64,000 nt of DNA, from NCBI GenBank assembly GCA_016841325.1, contig JAENZJ010000003.1:1-64000 (forward strand), given 5' to 3'. Made by a program: the position numbers and the translations under genes. Below are positions 1,814-36,986 of the stretch, piece by piece; position 1 is the first letter of the stretch, and the number at the start of each line of letters is the position of its first letter. Source of the DNA: Thermincola carboxydiphila. Its GTDB lineage: Bacteria; Bacillota; Thermincolia; Thermincolales; UBA2595. Below the pieces are notes generated by a model that was not told the origin of the DNA, searched no databases, and saw only the letters and a program-made list of their open reading frames with translations.

Positions 1814-4372
1814 TCACTGGTTGGGTACTTCTTCAGTTAAGAAATCAAACAGCGTAGGAATATTAATTTCAGCTGCAACTGCCTTCAGATACCCAACGCC
1901 ATCCCGGAAGTAATCGCTGTTGAGTTCGATACCATATCCTATGCGGCCCATCTTCACTGCCATATAAGGCACTGTCATCAGACCGCCAAACGGGTCAAAC
2001 ACTACTTCCCCAGGATTTGAATACCGGTTAATAATCCGCTCCACTATATCGATTTGTAGAGGGCAGACGTGCATCTGCAACCGTTTCTGTGTCTGAGATG
2101 AATTCAGTGTCCGCATCCGGTTAATGTCGTCCCAAACATGGTCATGCCACGACCCCGGGGCAACTACCATAAATGATGCTGGCAGCCGGCCGTCTTTATC
2201 TAGCCTCTTTGCAAGCTCCACGTGCTCGTTATAGTCATAAACATTTTCCCGGGAGAATTTGCGATAGACTGCCCGTAGGTTCTCTATAGGAATCTTGGTA
2301 AGCTCATCCTTTGCCAACAGCCGGTTCCCGGACGTTCTCCAGAATGCGTGAGCATCTATCTGCCATTGGGCCCTAGTATACTCTTCTTTAGTCTTGGACA
2401 CCTGAATATCAGCATAAGCCTTGCTGGTATCACTCGGCAGCTTCCGGAAGAGAAGAATATATTCCGGGCAACCCACCCCCATCTTAGTACCATCTTTGCA
2501 CTGCTCTGACCACCCCAACCGGTACGTCTGATTATTCTCCCGAACCACGTCGGTAACAACGGTGATTCTGCCCATGTACTGGAATCCGTGCTTCATAAAG
2601 TGGAACACAGTCATATCAGAGAATGGGTCAACTGTCGGCATTCCGGTACCAGTGGCATTACCAAATAGTATCCGGTCTTTAACGTGGATGGCAGCCACCC
2701 GGCCAGGCTTTAACACCCGTAAAAGTTCGGGGGTCAAGAAGTCCATCTGCTCAAAGAACTTATCATTATCTTCGTTATGGCCGAAATCGTTGTATGATGG
2801 GGTATATTCGTAATGGTTGCTAAATGGGATAGATGTATGTATCAGGTCGATGCTATTCTCATCCATACCGGAGGTTTCTAAAACACAATCATTATTCACT
2901 GCTGTATAATACTCAGTCTCAATCTTCACTCTATCAACCCCTATACTTCTGGCCAGCTTGTCCATGACCGATGTTCCGGACAGCCCATATTTCTTGATTA
3001 TGGCCGTCATCTTTTCAACGAGGTAATTATGCTGCTCCCATTTTTTCTGCAATGCCTGCAGGACCTGGCGCTCACTCTCGGTATAGATGATGTCAATTCT
3101 GACCGACTCCGTCTGGAGGAACCGGTATATCCGGTGAATTGCTTGGATAAAGTCATTAAATTGATAATCTATCCCCAGGAATATGGCCCTGTGACAGTAG
3201 CGCTGGAAGTTACAGCCGGATCCGGACAGTTCCTTTTTTGTGGCGAAGAGTTTTATGCGCCCTTCAGAGAAGTCTATAACGCGCTGCTCCCTGGTGTCCA
3301 GCTCTTGGCTCCCGTAGATTTCCACAACCCCCGGGATTGCCTGCTTAATCGCGTGACGCTCGGCCTCAAGGTCATGCCATAGTATGAAGTGGTCGTCTGG
3401 ACTCTCACTGACAATCTCAGCCATTTTGGCAACCCTTGCACTAATACTCTCCCGCTTTTCCCTAGCCGCATCAGTTAACCCGGTGGCGGCATCTCTGATG
3501 AGCTTCAACTGGCCGTCTTTTTCCGCTCCCGCAGTTTTGTGATTCACCGGTATTTCATGGTACCTGACATCGAGAGGGGGTAAGTCGTAACCTTCATCCG
3601 AATATCCCAAATCAGAAGGTTTAGTAATAAATAGTGCCCAGGTTGAAACCCACAGCCAAAATTCATCTTCCTTATGCGGGTAAAGCGTGAGATTATTAGC
3701 CTTTGTGCTGTCCCTCTGGAAGAATCTAGTTAGGGCCTGGCCAGTATCCATAACCTCCAGGTACCCAGCATAATGTATCAGCTCTTTAAATTTATTTGGA
3801 GAAGGAGTCGCGGTACAAACCAGCTTGAAAGGTACCCCTTTGAATTTGCCCAGGAAAATCTGGTAGGTTTTCGAGCCGTAACTCCTGAGAACAGATGCTT
3901 CATCAAGGCATGTTGCTGTAAAATACCGAGGGGCAATATCCCCATCCCTGACACGCTCATAATTGGTAAGTAGAATTTGGCCGGTTGCCGCTTCAACCTC
4001 TGCCACGTTGCGGACATATTCCGGCGGATCCATGCCGAGCAGCTGCACCGCATCCCTGACGAATTCTTTTTTCACCCCAAGGGGTAGGACTATAAGGGCC
4101 TTGCCGCCCATGCGCTCGGTAACCAGCCGACAGAATTCCAACTCCTGCACCGTTTTACCTAAGCCAAATGATTCAAACAGTGCCCTTCTGCCGCCCCGAA
4201 TCGCCCATACCACCCCATCCCTTTGATGCGGCTTAAGTGCCGAATTAACCTCGTCAGGGGATACGACAAAGCCAGTTTCCTTGGCTATCTCAATTTTGCT
4301 ATGAAGAAAATCAAAGTATGCTGACAAATTTATCAACTCCGGCGAAATTTCTATTGACATGCGTATGCGCAT
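1814..4372 (-). CDS. SNF2-like helicase fused to a DNA methyltransferase
   Basis: 852 aa. Residues about 45-430 form a superfamily 2 helicase: Walker A GLGKT near 70, a DEAS motif II, TATPSP motif III and QAIHRIYR motif VI. Residues about 495-852 form an N4/N6-type DNA methyltransferase in beta order, with motif IV first (TSIPFSNHYEY near 511, where SPPY/DPPY is usual) and the SAM-binding motif DPFGG at 793-797 followed by GYGIEL. The protein may remodel DNA and methylate phage or host DNA; no partner endonuclease is adjacent. No good ribosome site precedes the ATG at 4372 or the alternative ATG at 4360. The start overlaps an operator-like palindrome. Confidence 0.85.
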   Translation of the reverse strand: MRIRMSIEISPELINLSAYFDFLHSKIEIAKETGFVVSPDEVNSALKPHQRDGVVWAIRGGRRALFESFGLGKTVQELEFCRLVTERMGGKALIVLPLGVKKEFVRDAVQLLGMDPPEYVRNVAEVEAATGQILLTNYERVRDGDIAPRYFTATCLDEASVLRSYGSKTYQIFLGKFKGVPFKLVCTATPSPNKFKELIHYAGYLEVMDTGQALTRFFQRDSTKANNLTLYPHKEDEFWLWVSTWALFITKPSDLGYSDEGYDLPPLDVRYHEIPVNHKTAGAEKDGQLKLIRDAATGLTDAAREKRESISARVAKMAEIVSESPDDHFILWHDLEAERHAIKQAIPGVVEIYGSQELDTREQRVIDFSEGRIKLFATKKELSGSGCNFQRYCHRAIFLGIDYQFNDFIQAIHRIYRFLQTESVRIDIIYTESERQVLQALQKKWEQHNYLVEKMTAIIKKYGLSGTSVMDKLARSIGVDRVKIETEYYTAVNNDCVLETSGMDENSIDLIHTSIPFSNHYEYTPSYNDFGHNEDNDKFFEQMDFLTPELLRVLKPGRVAAIHVKDRILFGNATGTGMPTVDPFSDMTVFHFMKHGFQYMGRITVVTDVVRENNQTYRLGWSEQCKDGTKMGVGCPEYILLFRKLPSDTSKAYADIQVSKTKEEYTRAQWQIDAHAFWRTSGNRLLAKDELTKIPIENLRAVYRKFSRENVYDYNEHVELAKRLDKDGRLPASFMVVAPGSWHDHVWDDINRMRTLNSSQTQKRLQMHVCPLQIDIVERIINRYSNPGEVVFDPFGGLMTVPYMAVKMGRIGYGIELNSDYFRDGVGYLKAVAAEINIPTLFDFLTEEVPNQ

Positions 4373-5432: not shown

Positions 5433-5792
5433 CTAACCGGCCTTTTCCATCAGCTGAAACCTTAAACTCTCCGCGACGGTCGCGATAAATTCTGCATTGG
5501 TCATTCTACGCTCGGGAATCTTCAGCGGGGCCAATACTTCCTGTAGCGGCTGCCTGTCTTTCCTGCTCCAGGCCCGTTCAATGGCGTGCCTGATTCCGCG
5601 TTCAACACGAATGGGAGTGGTTTTATAGGCATCGGCAATCATCGGATATGCAATAGTGTTCAGGCTCCTTTGTGCTATCGTGCAATCATCAAGCGTCATC
5701 AGGATGGCAGCTTTGAGATATGCGAAACCCACGGTATGACAGGAAACGCCAAGTCTCCTGATAACGTGACTGACAAGCTGTTCTTTATTCAC
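5433..5792 (-). CDS. Free-standing Spo0A C-terminal DNA-binding domain protein
   Basis: 119 aa from GTG at 5792, which has a strong GGAGGTGG site; the frame continues upstream but there it crosses the tRNA-like element. Nearly the whole protein matches the Spo0A effector domain: IRRLGVSCHTVGFAYLKAAI at the start, RVERGIRHAIERAW (compare RVERAIRHAIEVAW in Bacillus subtilis Spo0A, the recognition region) in the middle and TNAEFIATVAESLR at the end. No receiver domain is present, so it cannot be switched by phosphorelay. It could bind 0A-box-like DNA on the phage or host, linking the element to sporulation control. That role is inference. Confidence 0.85.
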   Translation of the reverse strand: MNKEQLVSHVIRRLGVSCHTVGFAYLKAAILMTLDDCTIAQRSLNTIAYPMIADAYKTTPIRVERGIRHAIERAWSRKDRQPLQEVLAPLKIPERRMTNAEFIATVAESLRFQLMEKAG

Positions 5793-5816: not shown

Positions 5817-5895
5817 TGGTTGGCGGGGAGCAGGAATCGAACCTGCGATATTCAGTCCCGGGCACTGAGCGTTTACCATTTCGCCACCCCCGCCA
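5817..5895 (-). tRNA. tRNA-like element with atypical anticodon loop
   Basis: Read on the minus strand, a cloverleaf can be drawn. The long acceptor helix is TGGCGGGGG with TCCCCGCCA (last pair G.U). Then U8 G9, a D-arm GCG..GGT..CGC, a 5-bp anticodon stem TCAGT/ACTGA and a perfect T-arm GCAGG-TTCGATT-CCTGC follow; an encoded ACCA trails the acceptor. The anticodon loop is GCCCGGG: it lacks the universal U33 and would read CCG. The acceptor plus T helix is about 14 bp instead of 12. It may be a degenerate tRNA, an unusual phage tRNA or a tRNA mimic. Its 3' end lies about 25 bases before the GTG of the Spo0A-domain gene. Confidence 0.55.
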
Positions 5896-5898
5896 CAA

Positions 5899-6111
5899 TT
5901 AACTATAGTTACCTGGGCCTAATATTTGGACAATCGCTGCTCTGTTTACGCCCAATGAAGCAAGTTTGTTAGCTATTTGGCAGCATTCATCATTTAAGAT
6001 GTTCCAGTATAGCGCCCCACCCATTTGGTCTCTGACTTTCACATGCTCTTTAAGCTCTTCAAGGGGTTCTTCTTTGGTCTCAATCTTTAATGCTTCGGTA
6101 ATTGTTCTCAT
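5899..6111 (-). CDS. Hypothetical phage protein (70 aa)
   Basis: The ATG at 6111 is preceded by GGAGGTGG with a short ACT spacer, so it is preferred to the upstream in-frame ATG at 6174. The N-terminal half is acidic and helical (MRTITEALKIETKEEPLEE); the C-terminal half (ECCQIANKLASLGVNRAAI) resembles a small helix-turn-helix, but this is weak. It ends four bases before the tRNA-like element. Function unknown. Confidence 0.6.
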   Translation of the reverse strand: MRTITEALKIETKEEPLEELKEHVKVRDQMGGALYWNILNDECCQIANKLASLGVNRAAIVQILGPGNYS

Positions 6112-6223
6112 AGTCCACCTCCGGCTGTATTGGCAATAGAAAATATAGGTTGAAAAGATGCCCTTGCCCATCATCGGCTGTTAGTCTCCGGGTTAGGGCT
6201 ATATTAAGGGAGAGGAAAATGGC

Positions 6224-6925
6224 TTAAGCTACATACACCGGTTTCCCGGTAATCTCCGCGACCTCACGTTTGAAACGCTCGGCATCGCTGTTATCATCAC
6301 TGAGATGTATAAGATGTATCTCTTTAACTTGGCTCAAATCGTTGGCCAACAGGAATTCTTTGACGTTTTTCAGGCTGAAATGAGAGCGTATAATCCGGTT
6401 TTTCAGGTCCAACGGCACGATGCCGGCATCAACGTTAGCACGAAGTATATCAGAGCAGTGATTACACTCAACCATGATATGGGTAAGGCCCTGGAATCTA
6501 TAGCGGATATAGTAAGTGTCTGTGGCGAAAACCAGTTTGTCTCCAGCCTGGTTGGCCAGCAGAAATCCTAACGGCTCTACAGCGTCATGCTGTGTATTAA
6601 AAGGCAGGATGGTCCACGAACCGACAATGAATTGCTCTTTGGATTTAATCACATTAAATCGGTGTCCTGTGACATCCAGAGCCTCTTTTGTACCGGCCGA
6701 TAAATAAATATCTATACCGGCTTTGGCCGCCTCATTGACTGCTTTACAGTGGTCCTTATGTTCATGGCTAACCAATGCACCTGCTATTTCAGAAGTCTTA
6801 AAATCGACGCCCCGCTGGATTTGCTTCCACTGGATCCCGCATTCCAGCAGCAAAGGTGTTTTGCCGTCTGTGACATAATAACAATTTCCTTTACTGCCGG
6901 ATGCCAGGACCTTTATATCAATCAA
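6224..6925 (-). CDS. MBL-fold metallohydrolase (YycJ/WalJ-like, probable nuclease)
   Basis: 233 aa. The metal site motif HxHxDH is present as HEHKDH at residues 54-59, with later ligands in FATDT (near 135) and the C-terminal IHLSDDN. The N-terminus VLASGSKGNCYYV is the usual first strand of the YycJ-type family. Phages often carry such a protein next to RecT, where it may act as the partner exonuclease. The start overlaps the RecT stop by four bases (ATGA), so the pair is coupled. A nuclease activity is likely but not proven by sequence alone. Confidence 0.85.
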   Translation of the reverse strand: MIDIKVLASGSKGNCYYVTDGKTPLLLECGIQWKQIQRGVDFKTSEIAGALVSHEHKDHCKAVNEAAKAGIDIYLSAGTKEALDVTGHRFNVIKSKEQFIVGSWTILPFNTQHDAVEPLGFLLANQAGDKLVFATDTYYIRYRFQGLTHIMVECNHCSDILRANVDAGIVPLDLKNRIIRSHFSLKNVKEFLLANDLSQVKEIHLIHLSDDNSDAERFKREVAEITGKPVYVA

Positions 6926-7896
6926 AAGTCGGGACCACCTTGGGCTGCTGTCTGCTGCTGTTTTTGGTAAGCCTCAAACTCATCACCGATACTCATTTGA
7001 CCCTCGGCTTCTTCGGTTTCAGCGGCAGGTTCATTCTTTTCCTCTCCAGCAGCAGCCGGCTCATCACCGTTATGTGCTTCATCTACAACGTGCTTAGAAG
7101 TTATATCAATAACCTCACTATTGGCGTTATCGACTACTTCCTGGGCAACTGTCTCCTCAGCGATTATCTCAGAGTTTCGGTTAAACACATCCTTAAGCAG
7201 ATTACAATCACTACTGGAATTAATAATCGCTTTACAGGCTCTGTTAATAACTGTTTTCTTGGCCATTTCAGCTGTAAACTTACCATGAGTAGAACCTGCC
7301 TTGATATTACCTTTATCATCGATGGGTTTCATCTGAGATTGCTGCCATGCCTGTTTTATCTCGGCAAAGGTCATAATTGTTGTTTTGACCCGCCCATCAT
7401 TATGAATAATGATGCAGTAAGCAGCCTTGATTTTTTTGCCGTCAATGTTCTCCAGGGACTGTTCGTGCTCAGTTACTTCCTTTTGGCCTCGATTAAGGCG
7501 ATACTTAAATACATCACCCTCGTAAACCACCTCGGCTATAATGTCATCTATGGTCTCATCCACTTCTTTAGCAACCGCCATGGTCCCGAAGTAAGACCGC
7601 TGACAAACCAGTTTATTGCCATAGGCGATGAAATAACACTGCTTTTTAGATGGATTCAACCCCTGGACCACCATTTCAAGCAGGGCATTCGCAATACTGT
7701 CTTTAGAGCAAACCTCCAGGACAGGTTTATCGTTTCTATCAGTGGTTCCCTGAAGAGTTAACCACGCAGCCTTCATGGCGTTCTCGGCGCTGTAATTTGC
7801 CGGTAGATGAAGCTGTCCGCTCTCTTGAAACTCCCTAACCTTTTGAGCCACCACATCAACCGTATCCTTTTTAACTAAAGCGACAACATTTGTCAT
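6922..7896 (-). CDS. recT: RecT-family single-strand annealing recombinase
   Basis: 324 aa. The RecT core is recognisable: ALLEMVVQGLNPSKKQCYFI near residues 71-90, LVCQRSYFGTMAVAKE, and the C-terminal KKTVINRACKAIINSSSD. The last 70 residues are acidic and low complexity (AHNGDEPAAAGEEKNEPAAE), likely a flexible tail that contacts single-strand binding protein or a partner. RecT anneals single strands during phage recombination and DNA repair. The gene sits between the SbcC-like ATPase (one base gap) and the MBL-fold nuclease (overlap), forming a recombination module. Confidence 0.92.
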   Translation of the reverse strand: MTNVVALVKKDTVDVVAQKVREFQESGQLHLPANYSAENAMKAAWLTLQGTTDRNDKPVLEVCSKDSIANALLEMVVQGLNPSKKQCYFIAYGNKLVCQRSYFGTMAVAKEVDETIDDIIAEVVYEGDVFKYRLNRGQKEVTEHEQSLENIDGKKIKAAYCIIIHNDGRVKTTIMTFAEIKQAWQQSQMKPIDDKGNIKAGSTHGKFTAEMAKKTVINRACKAIINSSSDCNLLKDVFNRNSEIIAEETVAQEVVDNANSEVIDITSKHVVDEAHNGDEPAAAGEEKNEPAAETEEAEGQMSIGDEFEAYQKQQQTAAQGGPDF

Positions 7897-7897
7897 T

Positions 7898-9877
7898 TTA
7901 AGCCACCTCCATAGATTTTTCCTTTGAAGCTACTTCAACCCGCAACTTCTTGTCCGGTTCTGAGACTATCAGGCTGATAACCTGTGCCTCGGTCTCTATT
8001 AACTTGGTTACGGCCTCGCGATTATCCACAAATATCGGAGCCGAAAAACCGTAATGCTGGGACAGGGTGTTAATAATGTCTAACCCGACATTTATCCTGG
8101 CCGCATTATTCAGGCCACTGGAATAAGGAACCCCCTTGTAAATCGTTTCGCAACACTCTACTACCCCGCCGTTGATCTGCACGTCAAACAACTTAAACCT
8201 GGCCATCTTAAACCGACTGTTGATTTTCTCTTCCAGCATTGACACCTTTGTCCGGATGAACTGCTCGGTCAGGTAAAGCTCCTCTTCCAATTTCGCATAT
8301 TCGGCGGCCAATTGCTTTTCCTGTGCCTTCAGCTGCTCAATGCGCTTCTGGCCTTCCTCGTATCGCCTGACGTTTGCCAGGGACCCTTCCAGTATTGCAA
8401 TGTCATTTTCAGCCTGAGCGATTTCCTCTTTTGCCTTAGCAATGACTTCGCTGTTACCTGCCTTCATGGTAGCAATAGCTTCTTCCAGCTTGGCTTTTTC
8501 CTGCAGCTTTTGAGCATAGCTAGGGTAATTGTCCAGGGTGTTTTCCGACCGGATAGACTCAATAGCTTGCTTAAGGCCATTAGCCTCCTGTTTCGTGGCC
8601 TCAAGCTGGGCCCCTAATTCTTCAATCTCAGCCTGTATATCCACATTCTGCCGTTCAAGCTCGGTAACCTCGGCCATGGTAGTCTTGCCCTCTGCGCTTA
8701 TAGATGCAAGTTTGTCCGCCTTTTCCCGGTTAAAGGCCGCTTCAGCTGTGGCCCTGGCCTCTTCCAGTTTTTCTTCCGGTACATCCTGGCCACAGGTGGG
8801 GCAAATGGATTCCTGGTTTAACTCAAGCTGCTGAGCGTTGACCTCGTTCCACTTGTTCCGCAGCTGGGCGGCCTTGGTTTTCAGGTTGTCAATCCTGCGC
8901 AGGTTGCTGGCGACATCCGATTCTTTGCCGCTTATTTCGCTTCTTAGTGAACTGAGCCTGAGCTCAATATCAGTCAGTGCCTTTCTCTTTTCAGAGACCA
9001 TGGCGTCAATTTCAGCCTGGTATTCGTTCTTCAAGGCCAACAGATCAGCATTGATTTCGCTCAGCTCATTCTTTTTCTGAGCGACCTCACCGCCCGATTC
9101 CAGCTGAAGAAGGTTGTCCTGCTTTTGCTTAAGCAGCGCTTTGGCCTTGGCAATGTCCTTCGGGAGCTGGTCAGCATCCAACATACTTATATCAGGCAGA
9201 CCCAACTGTACTTCATCAATCCTGGTCGGAATCTTTTCAAGTTCCTTGTTTAGCTCAGTACGCCTGGCGGCTATCACCTTGCGATGGTCATCCAGGCTCC
9301 GGCCTTTAAGTATCTCCGGAAGCTTCGCCAGTGACTTATCAGAGTTAATGACCTCTTCATCAGATACGTAGCCGCATACATCAAGCAGGGTCTCTCTGCG
9401 TTTAGTCCAATGTAGCTGCTCATTAAAATAGGCCGGTGATGTCAGAAGTTTAAATGTCTCCTCATCAGCAATATCGCCAACCCTGGCAGTGTACTCATTT
9501 TTCTTGACCGGAACACCGTTGATAAAATAATCAGTAGTATGCCCGGTAAACTCTTTTGACGCACTGCCGCGTTTCTTGGTCCATTTCTCAGCATAGACCT
9601 TGCGGAGAGTTACCGGCCTCCCGGAAACATCCAGTGCTGCCTCAACCTCATGTTCCAAACCGTGGAGCACGGTCCCGGCCTGGTCCAGTGTCTTGATATC
9701 AAAATCCTTCTTGTTCTGGCTGTCTTTATCAAAGAGTAACCAGAGAAAAGCGTCAAACAGTGTTGTCTTCCCGGTTGCGTTATCACCGAAAACCTTTACG
9801 TCTTTACCCTGGGTATCCAGCTTAAACGACTTGATGCCTTTGAAATTTTTAAGGCTAAGTGTTAACAGCTTCATCAT
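7898..9877 (-). CDS. SbcC/Rad50-like ATPase with zinc hook
   Basis: About 659 aa. The start is set at the ATG pair 9877/9874, which follows GAGAGGTG; the frame extends upstream into the tRNA-like element. Walker A is GDNATGKT (residues 31-38). Long coiled-coil segments flank a central zinc hook CPTCGQ near residue 356, as in Rad50 and SbcC. The C-terminal lobe has FVDNREAV and IVSEPDKKL, compatible with a shortened second ATPase half. Such proteins work with a nuclease on DNA ends; here the neighbours are RecT and an MBL-fold enzyme. No SbcD-like nuclease is adjacent, so the MBL protein could fill that role. Confidence 0.85.
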   Translation of the reverse strand: MMKLLTLSLKNFKGIKSFKLDTQGKDVKVFGDNATGKTTLFDAFLWLLFDKDSQNKKDFDIKTLDQAGTVLHGLEHEVEAALDVSGRPVTLRKVYAEKWTKKRGSASKEFTGHTTDYFINGVPVKKNEYTARVGDIADEETFKLLTSPAYFNEQLHWTKRRETLLDVCGYVSDEEVINSDKSLAKLPEILKGRSLDDHRKVIAARRTELNKELEKIPTRIDEVQLGLPDISMLDADQLPKDIAKAKALLKQKQDNLLQLESGGEVAQKKNELSEINADLLALKNEYQAEIDAMVSEKRKALTDIELRLSSLRSEISGKESDVASNLRRIDNLKTKAAQLRNKWNEVNAQQLELNQESICPTCGQDVPEEKLEEARATAEAAFNREKADKLASISAEGKTTMAEVTELERQNVDIQAEIEELGAQLEATKQEANGLKQAIESIRSENTLDNYPSYAQKLQEKAKLEEAIATMKAGNSEVIAKAKEEIAQAENDIAILEGSLANVRRYEEGQKRIEQLKAQEKQLAAEYAKLEEELYLTEQFIRTKVSMLEEKINSRFKMARFKLFDVQINGGVVECCETIYKGVPYSSGLNNAARINVGLDIINTLSQHYGFSAPIFVDNREAVTKLIETEAQVISLIVSEPDKKLRVEVASKEKSMEVA

Positions 9878-9896
9878 TTCACCTCTCGTTTTAATT

Positions 9897-10043
9897 TGGT
9901 TGGCGGGGGCAGGGATTTGCACCCTGCATGCAACCTGCTCTTTCGTCTGTTTCAACCACGGACATATAGCCCATGCCGGGGTTACGGTACGGTTGCCTGT
10001 GACTTTCCCATCGTCAGTGTCTACCTATTCCACCACCCCGCCA
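9897..10043 (-). other. Second tRNA-like element (147 nt, long variable region)
   Basis: On the minus strand the ends form the same type of acceptor helix as the element at 5817-5895: TGGCGGGG with CCCCGCCA, then an encoded ACCA. U8 G9 is followed by a D-arm GTGGAATAGGTAGACAC of the Leu/Ser type, a short stem TGAC/GTCA with loop text ATGGGAA, and a T-arm-like hairpin GCAGGG-TGCAAAT-CCCTGC. About 65 extra bases lie where the variable arm should be. This could be a tRNA with an insertion, a pseudogene, or an mRNA-leader mimic. It ends about 20 bases before the SbcC-like start codon. Confidence 0.4.
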
Positions 10044-16095: not shown

Positions 16096-17292
16096 ATGGG
16101 CAGGAGATACACAACCAATATTACCAAGATTGCCAAGGACCATTATCGCATTACCATCAACCTTGGCAAAGACCCTGAAACAGGCACATACAAAAAGAAA
16201 CGCAGAGACGTCCATGGTACCCGGCCAGAGGCAGAGGCAATCCGGGATGAAATGGTAGACGAACTGGAACAACCGGAGGGACAATATTCCAGCCAGTTGC
16301 TGGGTGACTACCTATTTCATTGGGTAGACACTATTGCAAAATCAAATCTGGAGCAAAACACTTATGAGAGTTATCGCTGGGAAATAGAAAAGCACATAAT
16401 CCCTTCTCTGGGGCACATACCTTTGTGCGAACTAATACCATTGCATATTCAGACGTTCTATTCGTATAAGTCTGAGGCTGGCCGGATAGCAAACGAAGCA
16501 TCGGAGGATAAACCTAAAGACAAAAAAGAGGACAAGCCTAATGGCCTGTCTAACCGGTCGGTGGAATATAAGCACTCAATACTTAACCAGGCGCTTAAAT
16601 ATGCAGTCAAGCCTCTGAAATTAATTCCGGAAAATCCATGCGAAGGCATTAAGCCGCCAAAATCAAAAGCCACTTCAAAGGAAAAGATGGTGGTCCTGAC
16701 CAGCAAGCAACTCCGGGACTTCCTGATTAACATTACCGACCACCGGGACTATGCTGAAATATTTGTTGACTCATACACCGGAATGCGAATATCTGAGCTA
16801 CTGGCCCTGCGCTGGATAGACGTCCTTTGGGACGAAAAACGAATCCGGGTTGAAATGACCCTGCACAAACTCAATGATGGCACCTTTGAGCATCGACCCA
16901 GGCTCAAGAATAAGAAGCCCCGCATAATAGATGTTACAGACAATGTTATATCTGTCCTGAGACAGCATCAAAAGCACCTGCTGTCAGAAGGTATACTCAA
17001 TAATCAAAATGGCCTCGTTTTCCCAGACGAAAACGGCATGCCCCAGGATCGCAAGAACCTATCGAAGCGCTTCAAAAATATAGCAGCTAAAATGGGCCAC
17101 AAGGGGATGAGGTTTCACGACCTGAGGCATACCCACGCCACCATCCTGTTAGAGGCCGGCGAGATGCTTAATGCGGTCTCAGAGAGGTTAGGACATAGTG
17201 ACCCATCCACTACTTCAAGAATATATGCGCACGTCCTGCCAGGTAAATCCAGAGCTACAGCAGACAGATTTGAACAGCTGATAAGTTTATGA
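16096..17292 (+). CDS. int: Tyrosine site-specific integrase
   Basis: 398 aa with AAAGGAG before the ATG. The order is an N-terminal arm-binding domain, a SAM-like core-binding domain (about 65-190) interrupted by a Lys-rich insertion (DKPKDKKEDKPN near 140), then the catalytic domain. Catalytic residues are visible: Arg in TGMRISELL (near 231), Lys in the LKNKKPR hairpin, HDLRH (near 341-345), LGHSD, and Tyr in RIYAHV (near 377). It should recombine the phage site with the tRNA-Leu 3' end found 130 bases downstream. The downstream stretch 17293-17355 has two GGGCTAA copies that could be arm sites. Confidence 0.95.
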   Translation: MGRRYTTNITKIAKDHYRITINLGKDPETGTYKKKRRDVHGTRPEAEAIRDEMVDELEQPEGQYSSQLLGDYLFHWVDTIAKSNLEQNTYESYRWEIEKHIIPSLGHIPLCELIPLHIQTFYSYKSEAGRIANEASEDKPKDKKEDKPNGLSNRSVEYKHSILNQALKYAVKPLKLIPENPCEGIKPPKSKATSKEKMVVLTSKQLRDFLINITDHRDYAEIFVDSYTGMRISELLALRWIDVLWDEKRIRVEMTLHKLNDGTFEHRPRLKNKKPRIIDVTDNVISVLRQHQKHLLSEGILNNQNGLVFPDENGMPQDRKNLSKRFKNIAAKMGHKGMRFHDLRHTHATILLEAGEMLNAVSERLGHSDPSTTSRIYAHVLPGKSRATADRFEQLISL

Positions 17293-17420: not shown

Positions 17421-17485
17421 ACGCACCAGATTCAGGTTCTAGTGCCCATTGGGGTGTGGAGGTTCAAGTCCTCTCGACCGCACCA
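17421..17485 (+). other. Right attachment site: 3' part of tRNA-Leu(CAG)
   Basis: The segment contains, in order, the 3' side of a D-stem (ACGC), an anticodon arm with loop TTCAGGT (anticodon CAG), a long variable arm (GCCC/GGGG), a T-arm GGAGG-TTCAAGT-CCTCT and the acceptor 3' side CGACCGC-A-CCA. The 5' acceptor strand GCGGTCG and the rest of the D-arm are missing upstream, so this is not a complete tRNA. It is the host tRNA 3' end left at one junction when an element integrates into a tRNA gene. The intact tRNA-Leu should lie at the other junction, left of the window. Confidence 0.85.
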
Positions 17486-17500
17486 AACTTGAGAAGCAGT

Positions 17501-36902: not shown

Positions 36903-36986
36903 TTTCGGCAGCCTGGCTATCATAGCAACAGCTTTAGACCCATGGCTTTGCGTCCCTAACTTTCGATAGGTTTGCCTTTGCGCTGA
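36903..36986 (-). promoter_or_regulatory. c-di-GMP-I (GEMM) riboswitch aptamer
   Basis: The minus strand carries the diagnostic parts in order: AGGCAAACC, a CGAAAG tetraloop, GGGACGCAAAGCC, GGGTCTA and AGGCTGCCG. These correspond to the P1b/P2 core, the GNRA loop, the tetraloop receptor stem and P3 of GEMM RNAs. A terminator follows. The direction of control (on or off with c-di-GMP) cannot be set from sequence alone. Confidence 0.92.

Follow-up and report, generated by a model that had tools for sequence, protein, structure and literature searches.

An anticodon-less tRNA-like RNA in a Thermincola carboxydiphila prophage and its relatives among phages

Two tRNA-like elements in the prophage

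Two tRNA-like elements, here called e1 and e2, are encoded within the early operon of a prophage of Thermincola carboxydiphila (assembly GCA_016841325.1, contig JAENZJ010000003.1). The window, that is the whole stretch of DNA that was analysed, comprises the first 64 kb (64,000 nucleotides, nt) of this 180,762-base contig, and the prophage at its left end is truncated by the contig end. As described below, the assignment of e2 to a conserved class of anticodon-less, tRNA-like phage RNAs is strongly supported, while e1 is probably a separate and more tRNA-like element.

Both elements lie where a first-pass annotation, made from the sequence alone, had placed them (Table 1), and both are oriented in the same direction on the minus strand. 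The common ends described there are present, namely TGGCGGGG at the 5′ end and CCCCGCCAACCAAA at the 3′ end, as is the long helix of acceptor and T-arm, which comprises 13 base pairs (bp) in each element (8 + 5 in e1, 7 + 6 in e2) and 14 if an outer U-A pair is counted. Likewise, the encoded 3′ CCA precedes a start codon by 24 nt in e1 (GTG at 5792 of the Spo0A-type gene) and by 19 nt in e2 (ATG at 9877 of the SbcC-like gene). The best phage homologues of the SbcC-like ATPase are 38–49% identical and several of them are annotated as SbcC-like; for the Spo0A-type protein no relatives were found among viral contigs.

Table 1. Positions of the two tRNA-like elements, their parts and the surrounding prophage features in the window
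Feature	Position	Strand	Remarks
e1, near-complete cloverleaf tRNA-like gene	5817..5895; core 5893..5823	minus	ARAGORN, RF00005
Spo0A C-terminal domain protein gene, behind e1	5433..5792	minus	PF08769, Pfam E 1.3e-26
e2, anticodon-less tRNA-like RNA	9897..10043; core 10042..9902 (141 nt)	minus	core plus outer U-A pair and encoded ACCA; covariance model R1
e2 acceptor, 5′ strand GGCGGGG	10036..10042	minus	pairs with 9908..9902
e2 D-arm GTGGAATAGGTAGACAC	10017..10033	minus	tRNA-Leu-like; family consensus GCGGAATAGGTAGACGC
e2 spacer TGACGATGGGAAAGTCACAG	9997..10016	minus	at the anticodon-arm place of a tRNA; weak 4-bp hairpin possible, loop GATGGGAAA
e2 payload domain	9930..9996	minus	after the 20-nt spacer; closing helix GCAACC/GGTTGC, 9996..9991 with 9935..9930
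e2 T-arm	9909..9927	minus	6-bp stem GCAGGG/CCCTGC, loop TGCAAAT
e2 acceptor, 3′ strand CCCCGCC	9902..9908	minus	followed by AACCA, 9901..9897
SbcC-like ATPase gene, behind e2	7898..9877	minus	Pfam SMC_N / AAA_29, weak
Prophage replication and recombination genes	left end of window	minus	
Integrase gene	16096-17292		prophage at window left end
tRNA 3′ half with CCA	~17437-17487		adjoins integrase gene; probably attachment (att) site, other prophage end lost at contig start

Architecture and detection of e2

The 7-bp acceptor, D-arm and T-arm of a canonical tRNA are all present in e2, which folds into an acceptor/D/T frame, but the cloverleaf is incomplete because the anticodon arm is missing. 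The tRNA and covariance searches suggested in the first-pass annotation divide the pair: e1 is called a tRNA, whereas e2 receives no ARAGORN call and no Rfam match even at E values up to 5, and is found by the covariance model R1. This model, trained on 30 phage elements not including e2, retrieves e2 at 71.4 bits (E 6e-18). In a scan of the whole genome the next matches of R1 after e2 are the host tRNA-Leu genes (31–35 bits), which indicates that the frame is kin to tRNA-Leu. Searching phages and 101 genomes by blastn with e2 returned only e2 itself, as the conserved parts are short, and a scan for promoters and terminators near e2 gave no excess over chance.

A family of phage elements with the same frame

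Scanners for a D-arm, a T-arm and a complementary acceptor turned up further atypical elements in related phage contigs; those of L207 and L243 have the same D-arm as e2 and also its unusual T-arm, GCNNGG-TGCAAAT-CCNNGC. A pattern search of viral contigs with TGCNNGGTGCAAATCCNNGC yielded at least 120 stretches, the majority of which carry the full frame; among the matches listed, ARAGORN calls only L275, a real tRNA-Leu. By a stricter finder at least 104 distinct elements were obtained from 4.7 Mb of fetched loci, with lengths of 60–254 nt and a median of 129 nt; all counts out of 104 given here refer to elements from the matches listed. The frame consists, in this order, of a 7-bp acceptor, TG, a tRNA-Leu-type D-arm, a spacer, an insert termed the payload, AT, and a 6-bp T-arm with the loop TGCAAAT. 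e2 agrees with the family in its acceptor, the TG, the D-arm consensus, the 6-bp T stem, the TGCAAAT loop and the payload helix.

The frame occurs more often than by chance. In dinucleotide-shuffled sequence the family-specific finder gave none in 4.7 Mb and the scanner for D-arm, T-arm and acceptor none in 0.85 Mb, while a laxer scanner did yield a few. The family is phage-associated: only two matches to the pattern were obtained in 398 genomes of the phylum, one of them e2 itself, compared with at least about 100 in viral contigs in one scan. A search of E. coli genomes with one member gave no match. Unannotated members are found in known phages, namely phi3T, EFP01 (Enterococcus), LP-101 (Listeria), Ln-9, SPG24, BtpYZU01, Pd_22F and 8014-B2; some of the carriers are well studied, and lytic phages of Leuconostoc are among them. 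Three model matches occur on the single contig L326 (10034-11881).

Pairing and covariation of the acceptor

For an unbiased test of pairing, elements were chosen by their D- and T-arm motifs alone, and the flanking 7 nt on either side were then checked for complementarity. All 75 elements of this set form at least six of the seven acceptor pairs, and 65 form all seven. With permuted partners the mean was 11 elements (maximum 19 in 1000 trials), and with partners slid by 1–3 nt it was 0–2. The set contains 46 different acceptors, the full set 64. In an alignment of 30 divergent members without e2, 100% of the cells pair and two-sided changes number 99, versus 22.8 after shuffling; the acceptor helix covaries at all seven positions across the family. 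Since the aligned members were chosen partly by their pairing, the motif-only test is the cleaner one. The acceptor/T frame is contained in the predicted fold of 90 of the 104 elements. Thus, of the properties by which the first-pass annotation had proposed to judge its elements, conservation in other phages and compensatory pairing are both found, the latter strongly.

Several variants of the architecture were seen. In five elements (L285, L300, L310, L338 and L353) the D-loop holds a second insert, with AATAG on one side and TAGACGC on the other. Contig L312 carries, besides its family member, another tRNA-like element with an insert, whose D-arm is different (TAGCTCAATAGGGAGAGC), and therefore other tRNA backbones may be used too. 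Further insert-bearing tRNA-like elements, with C8-G9 and a 5-bp T stem, are present in phages related to that of the window (L002:9613-9796, L003:5469-5590 and L099:2018-2121); those of L002 and L003 are located about 30 nt before a start codon, and both are missed by R1.

The missing anticodon arm and the payload

Hairpins of anticodon type (5-bp stem, 7-nt loop) are not enriched after the D-arm in the family, and in L271 the D-arm and the T-arm are separated by only about 8 nt. Reading the insert as a tRNA intron was rejected, as L271 holds nothing that splicing could turn into an anticodon. The payload is hypervariable, with about 36–200 nt, and 103 of the 104 elements keep at least 36 nt. 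A closing helix is common and stops 2 nt short of the T stem, where class II tRNAs have their variable arm. An exact 6-bp closing match is present in 22 of 77 distinct payloads, with 1.2 expected for permuted partners (maximum 8 in 2000).

Payloads are replaced as blocks. Listeria phages with the acceptor ATACTCG carry several unrelated payloads in one frame. In LP-101 (L377) and L329 both flanks are near-identical and the frame is kept, while the payloads of 78 and 37 nt are unrelated. L266 is 98–99% identical upstream to L294 or L269, and L320 is 98% identical downstream to L276, again with unrelated payloads. This block replacement within a constant frame is the observation most informative on function.

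Two peculiarities of payloads may be added. An inner T-arm-like hairpin, mostly at a near-fixed offset, is found in seven of them (L263, L279, L306, L322, L333, L357 and L369; 0.03 expected), and in L313:5591-5720 a payload hairpin loop is reverse-complemented relative to L289 with the stem kept.

The more tRNA-like element e1

The cloverleaf of e1 is recognised by tRNA models, as tRNA-Arg(CCG) by ARAGORN and by the Rfam family RF00005 with 43.6 bits (E 5.7e-6). Its acceptor GCGGGGG/UCCCCGC is extended by one G-C pair and perhaps by a U-A pair as well, the T stem has 5 bp, and a CCA is encoded at 5819..5817. In the anticodon-like arm TCAGT-GCCCGGG-ACTGA the loop GCCCGGG has C at position 33. 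Elongator tRNAs have U at this position. Of the two canonical features U33 and a 12-bp acceptor/T helix, e1 has neither, and with C33 and the lengthened acceptor helix its decoding is doubtful. A role in filling gaps of the host tRNA set was rejected, because the host already has tRNA-Arg(CCG) and tRNA-Pro(GGG). The host tRNA closest to e1 has an identity of 0.72 with it, a value at the low end of the range found between host tRNAs.

The D-arm of e1, TGGCGAAATGGTAAACGC, is present in 82 viral stretches, many of which are true tRNA-Leu genes, while 37 of the 82 have no ARAGORN call. In many of the uncalled stretches an unrelated insert of about 40–170 nt replaces the anticodon arm and the T-arm is normal, having a 5-bp stem and a TTC loop, so that this D-arm is common to true tRNA-Leu genes and payload-bearing elements. 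At L410 (~1852-1869, minus strand) the D-arm and T-arm of an apparent tRNA-Leu gene are separated by about 235 nt of inserted sequence that resembles an intron.

The first-pass annotation had treated the two elements as related. In contrast to e2 with its missing anticodon arm, e1 is a nearly complete cloverleaf and R1 scores it at only 22.7 bits, below the host tRNA-Leu genes, so that the two are not clearly one kind of element. Probably e1 is related to phage tRNAs but impaired in decoding; it may be either an impaired tRNA or a short-insert relative.

Genomic context of the family

The first-pass annotation had seen in the elements possible regulators of the genes behind them, and this proposal finds no support in the family. 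SbcC-like loci fetched from other phages conserve the gene, and no element was found directly before it; in L207 an element lies upstream of the SbcC-like gene by two genes and in L243 by one. The next gene is on the opposite strand in 29 of 98 cases, and next genes are varied, including terminase subunits, endolysin and many unknowns. Same-strand distances range from 21 to 996 nt, and 22 members lie 21–39 nt before a start codon. Such proximity is expected, since a compact phage operon places any same-strand RNA near a start codon, and the position before the gene is incidental. Genes upstream are often late regulators (phrog_36 in 15 of 74, phrog_248 in 13 of 74). A link to a conserved neighbouring protein was rejected, because neither these upstream regulators nor the terminase or endolysin genes downstream, although frequent, occur throughout the family.

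A same-strand tRNA called by ARAGORN lies within 400 nt of 14 of the 104 elements. The distance is only 1–16 nt in L364, L382, L264 and EFP01, and in the latter the tRNA precedes the element by a few nt. The architecture of the frame suits maturation by RNase P and RNase Z, and the adjacency to tRNA genes suggests that such cleavage may take place.

Other structured RNAs occur in the same neighbourhoods. A ROOL RNA (L278:667-1248) precedes a family member by 13 nt, and rli62 and mcrA RNA are neighbours of members in Listeria phages. An apparent overlap with Listeria rliG in L299 was dismissed: the convincing part of the rliG match stops just before the element, which is a different RNA. Elsewhere in the window a cyclic di-GMP-I riboswitch is found at 36904-36986 on the minus strand (81.8 bits).

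Comparison with known RNAs

With class II tRNAs, represented by tRNA-Leu, the family shares U8-G9, the D-arm type GGCGGAAT.GGTAGACGC, the acceptor, the T-arm and a variable-arm-like helix directly before the T stem. It differs by the missing anticodon arm, the 6-bp T stem, G55 and the payload of about 36–200 nt in place of the variable arm. The nearest known RNA is T4 rnaC (species 1 RNA), a small stable RNA of 139 nt that adjoins the T4 tRNA cluster and has a perfect T-arm, CCGGG-TTCGAAT-CCCGG. Location beside phage tRNA genes and an intact T-arm with a long hairpin directly before it are common points, and stability would be another. In rnaC, however, there is no recognisable D-arm, whereas e2 has one, the acceptor is paired at 5 of 7 positions by our reading, the T stem has 5 bp and the loop is of TTC type; R1 gave no match in the T4 tRNA cluster.

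tmRNA likewise combines tRNA-like ends with a large domain replacing the anticodon arm, but the family keeps a tRNA-type D-arm, and ARAGORN found no tmRNA in the window. ROOL and GOLLD are RNAs of phages and prophages, often near tRNA genes (PMC12286853). They are much larger and structurally unrelated, whereas in the family the RNA itself is tRNA-like. In engineered tRNA scaffolds a foreign RNA is placed in the anticodon arm of a tRNA frame for stability and processing. These are man-made, while the family is natural and carries its insertion at the place of the variable arm.

Neither e2 nor the frame of any member tested is covered by a family of Rfam 15 at a score above gathering. In a literature search of mostly open-access journal papers, no description of phage tRNA-like, anticodon-less, hypervariable RNAs was found. 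The families of Rfam 15, tmRNA and canonical tRNA each differ from e2 in a defining point, and the family is apparently a widespread, undescribed class of phage RNAs.

A proposed tRNA-like scaffold with an exchangeable module

The explanation ranked first, which we regard as evenly balanced between right and wrong, is that the elements are tRNA-like scaffolds with an exchangeable RNA module. The frame would be derived from, or would mimic, a class II tRNA of tRNA-Leu type that has lost its anticodon arm and whose variable arm has turned into the payload, a domain that is hypervariable and can be exchanged. The frame would be matured from phage transcripts by RNase P and RNase Z of the host, or by exonucleases together with CCA addition, giving a stable small RNA as a natural counterpart of the tRNA scaffold. 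The payload could then act in trans as antisense RNA, sponge or protein decoy, and its specificity would differ among phages and be under pressure to change. In its most specific form the proposal is only tentative: the variable arm of a natural scaffold would be a specificity module that related phages swap at one fixed locus, and it would act in trans in conflicts between phages or between phage and host.

Several points weigh against the scaffold with an exchangeable module. Under the regular expression of the unbiased test, 39 of 114 T-motif sites lack a D-arm motif. The T-loop TGCAAAT is part of the search pattern, and its invariance in the retrieved set is therefore no evidence. An encoded CCA is rare in the family, and G55 of the T-loop and the 13-bp acceptor/T helix are atypical for substrates of RNase P, RNase Z and EF-Tu. 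The folding energy of the payloads is modestly below that of shuffles (mean z −0.64). Finally, payload function is deduced from the exchange alone, for which drift of a tolerated insert is an alternative.

Among the rival explanations a decoy or inhibitor survives best, although it appears unlikely. By mimicking the elbow, acceptor and variable arm of a tRNA, the RNA would occupy host tRNA-binding proteins, notably defence nucleases that cleave tRNA, and the turnover of payloads would reflect an arms race. It agrees with this that the elbow and the acceptor are the constant parts and that the payload stands at the place of the variable arm; a precedent is provided by defence nucleases that cut the variable loop of tRNA-Tyr and by phages that answer with their own tRNA (PMC11555353, PMC13096335). 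Against it, the payloads are unlike any variable arm of a tRNA, with up to about 200 nt, and the anticodon loop, a common target of nucleases, is absent.

Rather improbable, and next in order, is a cis-acting punctuation of the transcript, comparable to that by tRNAs in mitochondria: the frame would only mark where RNase P and RNase Z cut phage transcripts apart, and the payload would be filler. RNase P and RNase Z need the acceptor and the T-arm. The acceptor/T frame is predicted in most members as given above, and the 22 members close to a start codon would fit as well. Compact genomes should lose filler, however, yet nearly all elements retain a payload of at least 36 nt, which keeps its closing helix and is exchanged as a block, and in 29 of 98 cases the next gene lies on the other strand.

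It is highly improbable that the elements are tRNA genes of phages, whether ordinary, decayed or intron-bearing. The tRNA call for e1, the tRNA-Leu-like frame with the R1 scores of the host tRNA-Leu genes, and the occurrence of the e1 D-arm in true tRNA-Leu genes speak for such an origin, but acceptors that pair fully and covary, together with a conserved T stem of 6 bp, would not have survived decay, and for e2 this origin is contradicted by the motif-only pairing test; in addition, ARAGORN calls only L275 among the matches listed, and L271 has no anticodon arm that splicing could restore. Least tenable of all are leader regulators dedicated to the gene directly behind, as first proposed, for which the short distance to the Shine-Dalgarno sequence and start codon in the window and in 22 members speaks, and against which stand the lack of conservation of that gene and the SbcC-like loci fetched from other phages, in none of which an element was found directly before the gene.

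If the elements are indeed tRNA-like scaffolds with exchangeable payloads, an entire class of small phage RNAs has been overlooked, since programs that look for tRNAs require an anticodon and all that blast can pick up is two short conserved pieces. The family provides a simple diagnostic pattern for the annotation of such RNAs. That payloads are exchanged while the locus stays fixed points to selection on the specificity of the RNA, as with immunity or anti-defence modules.

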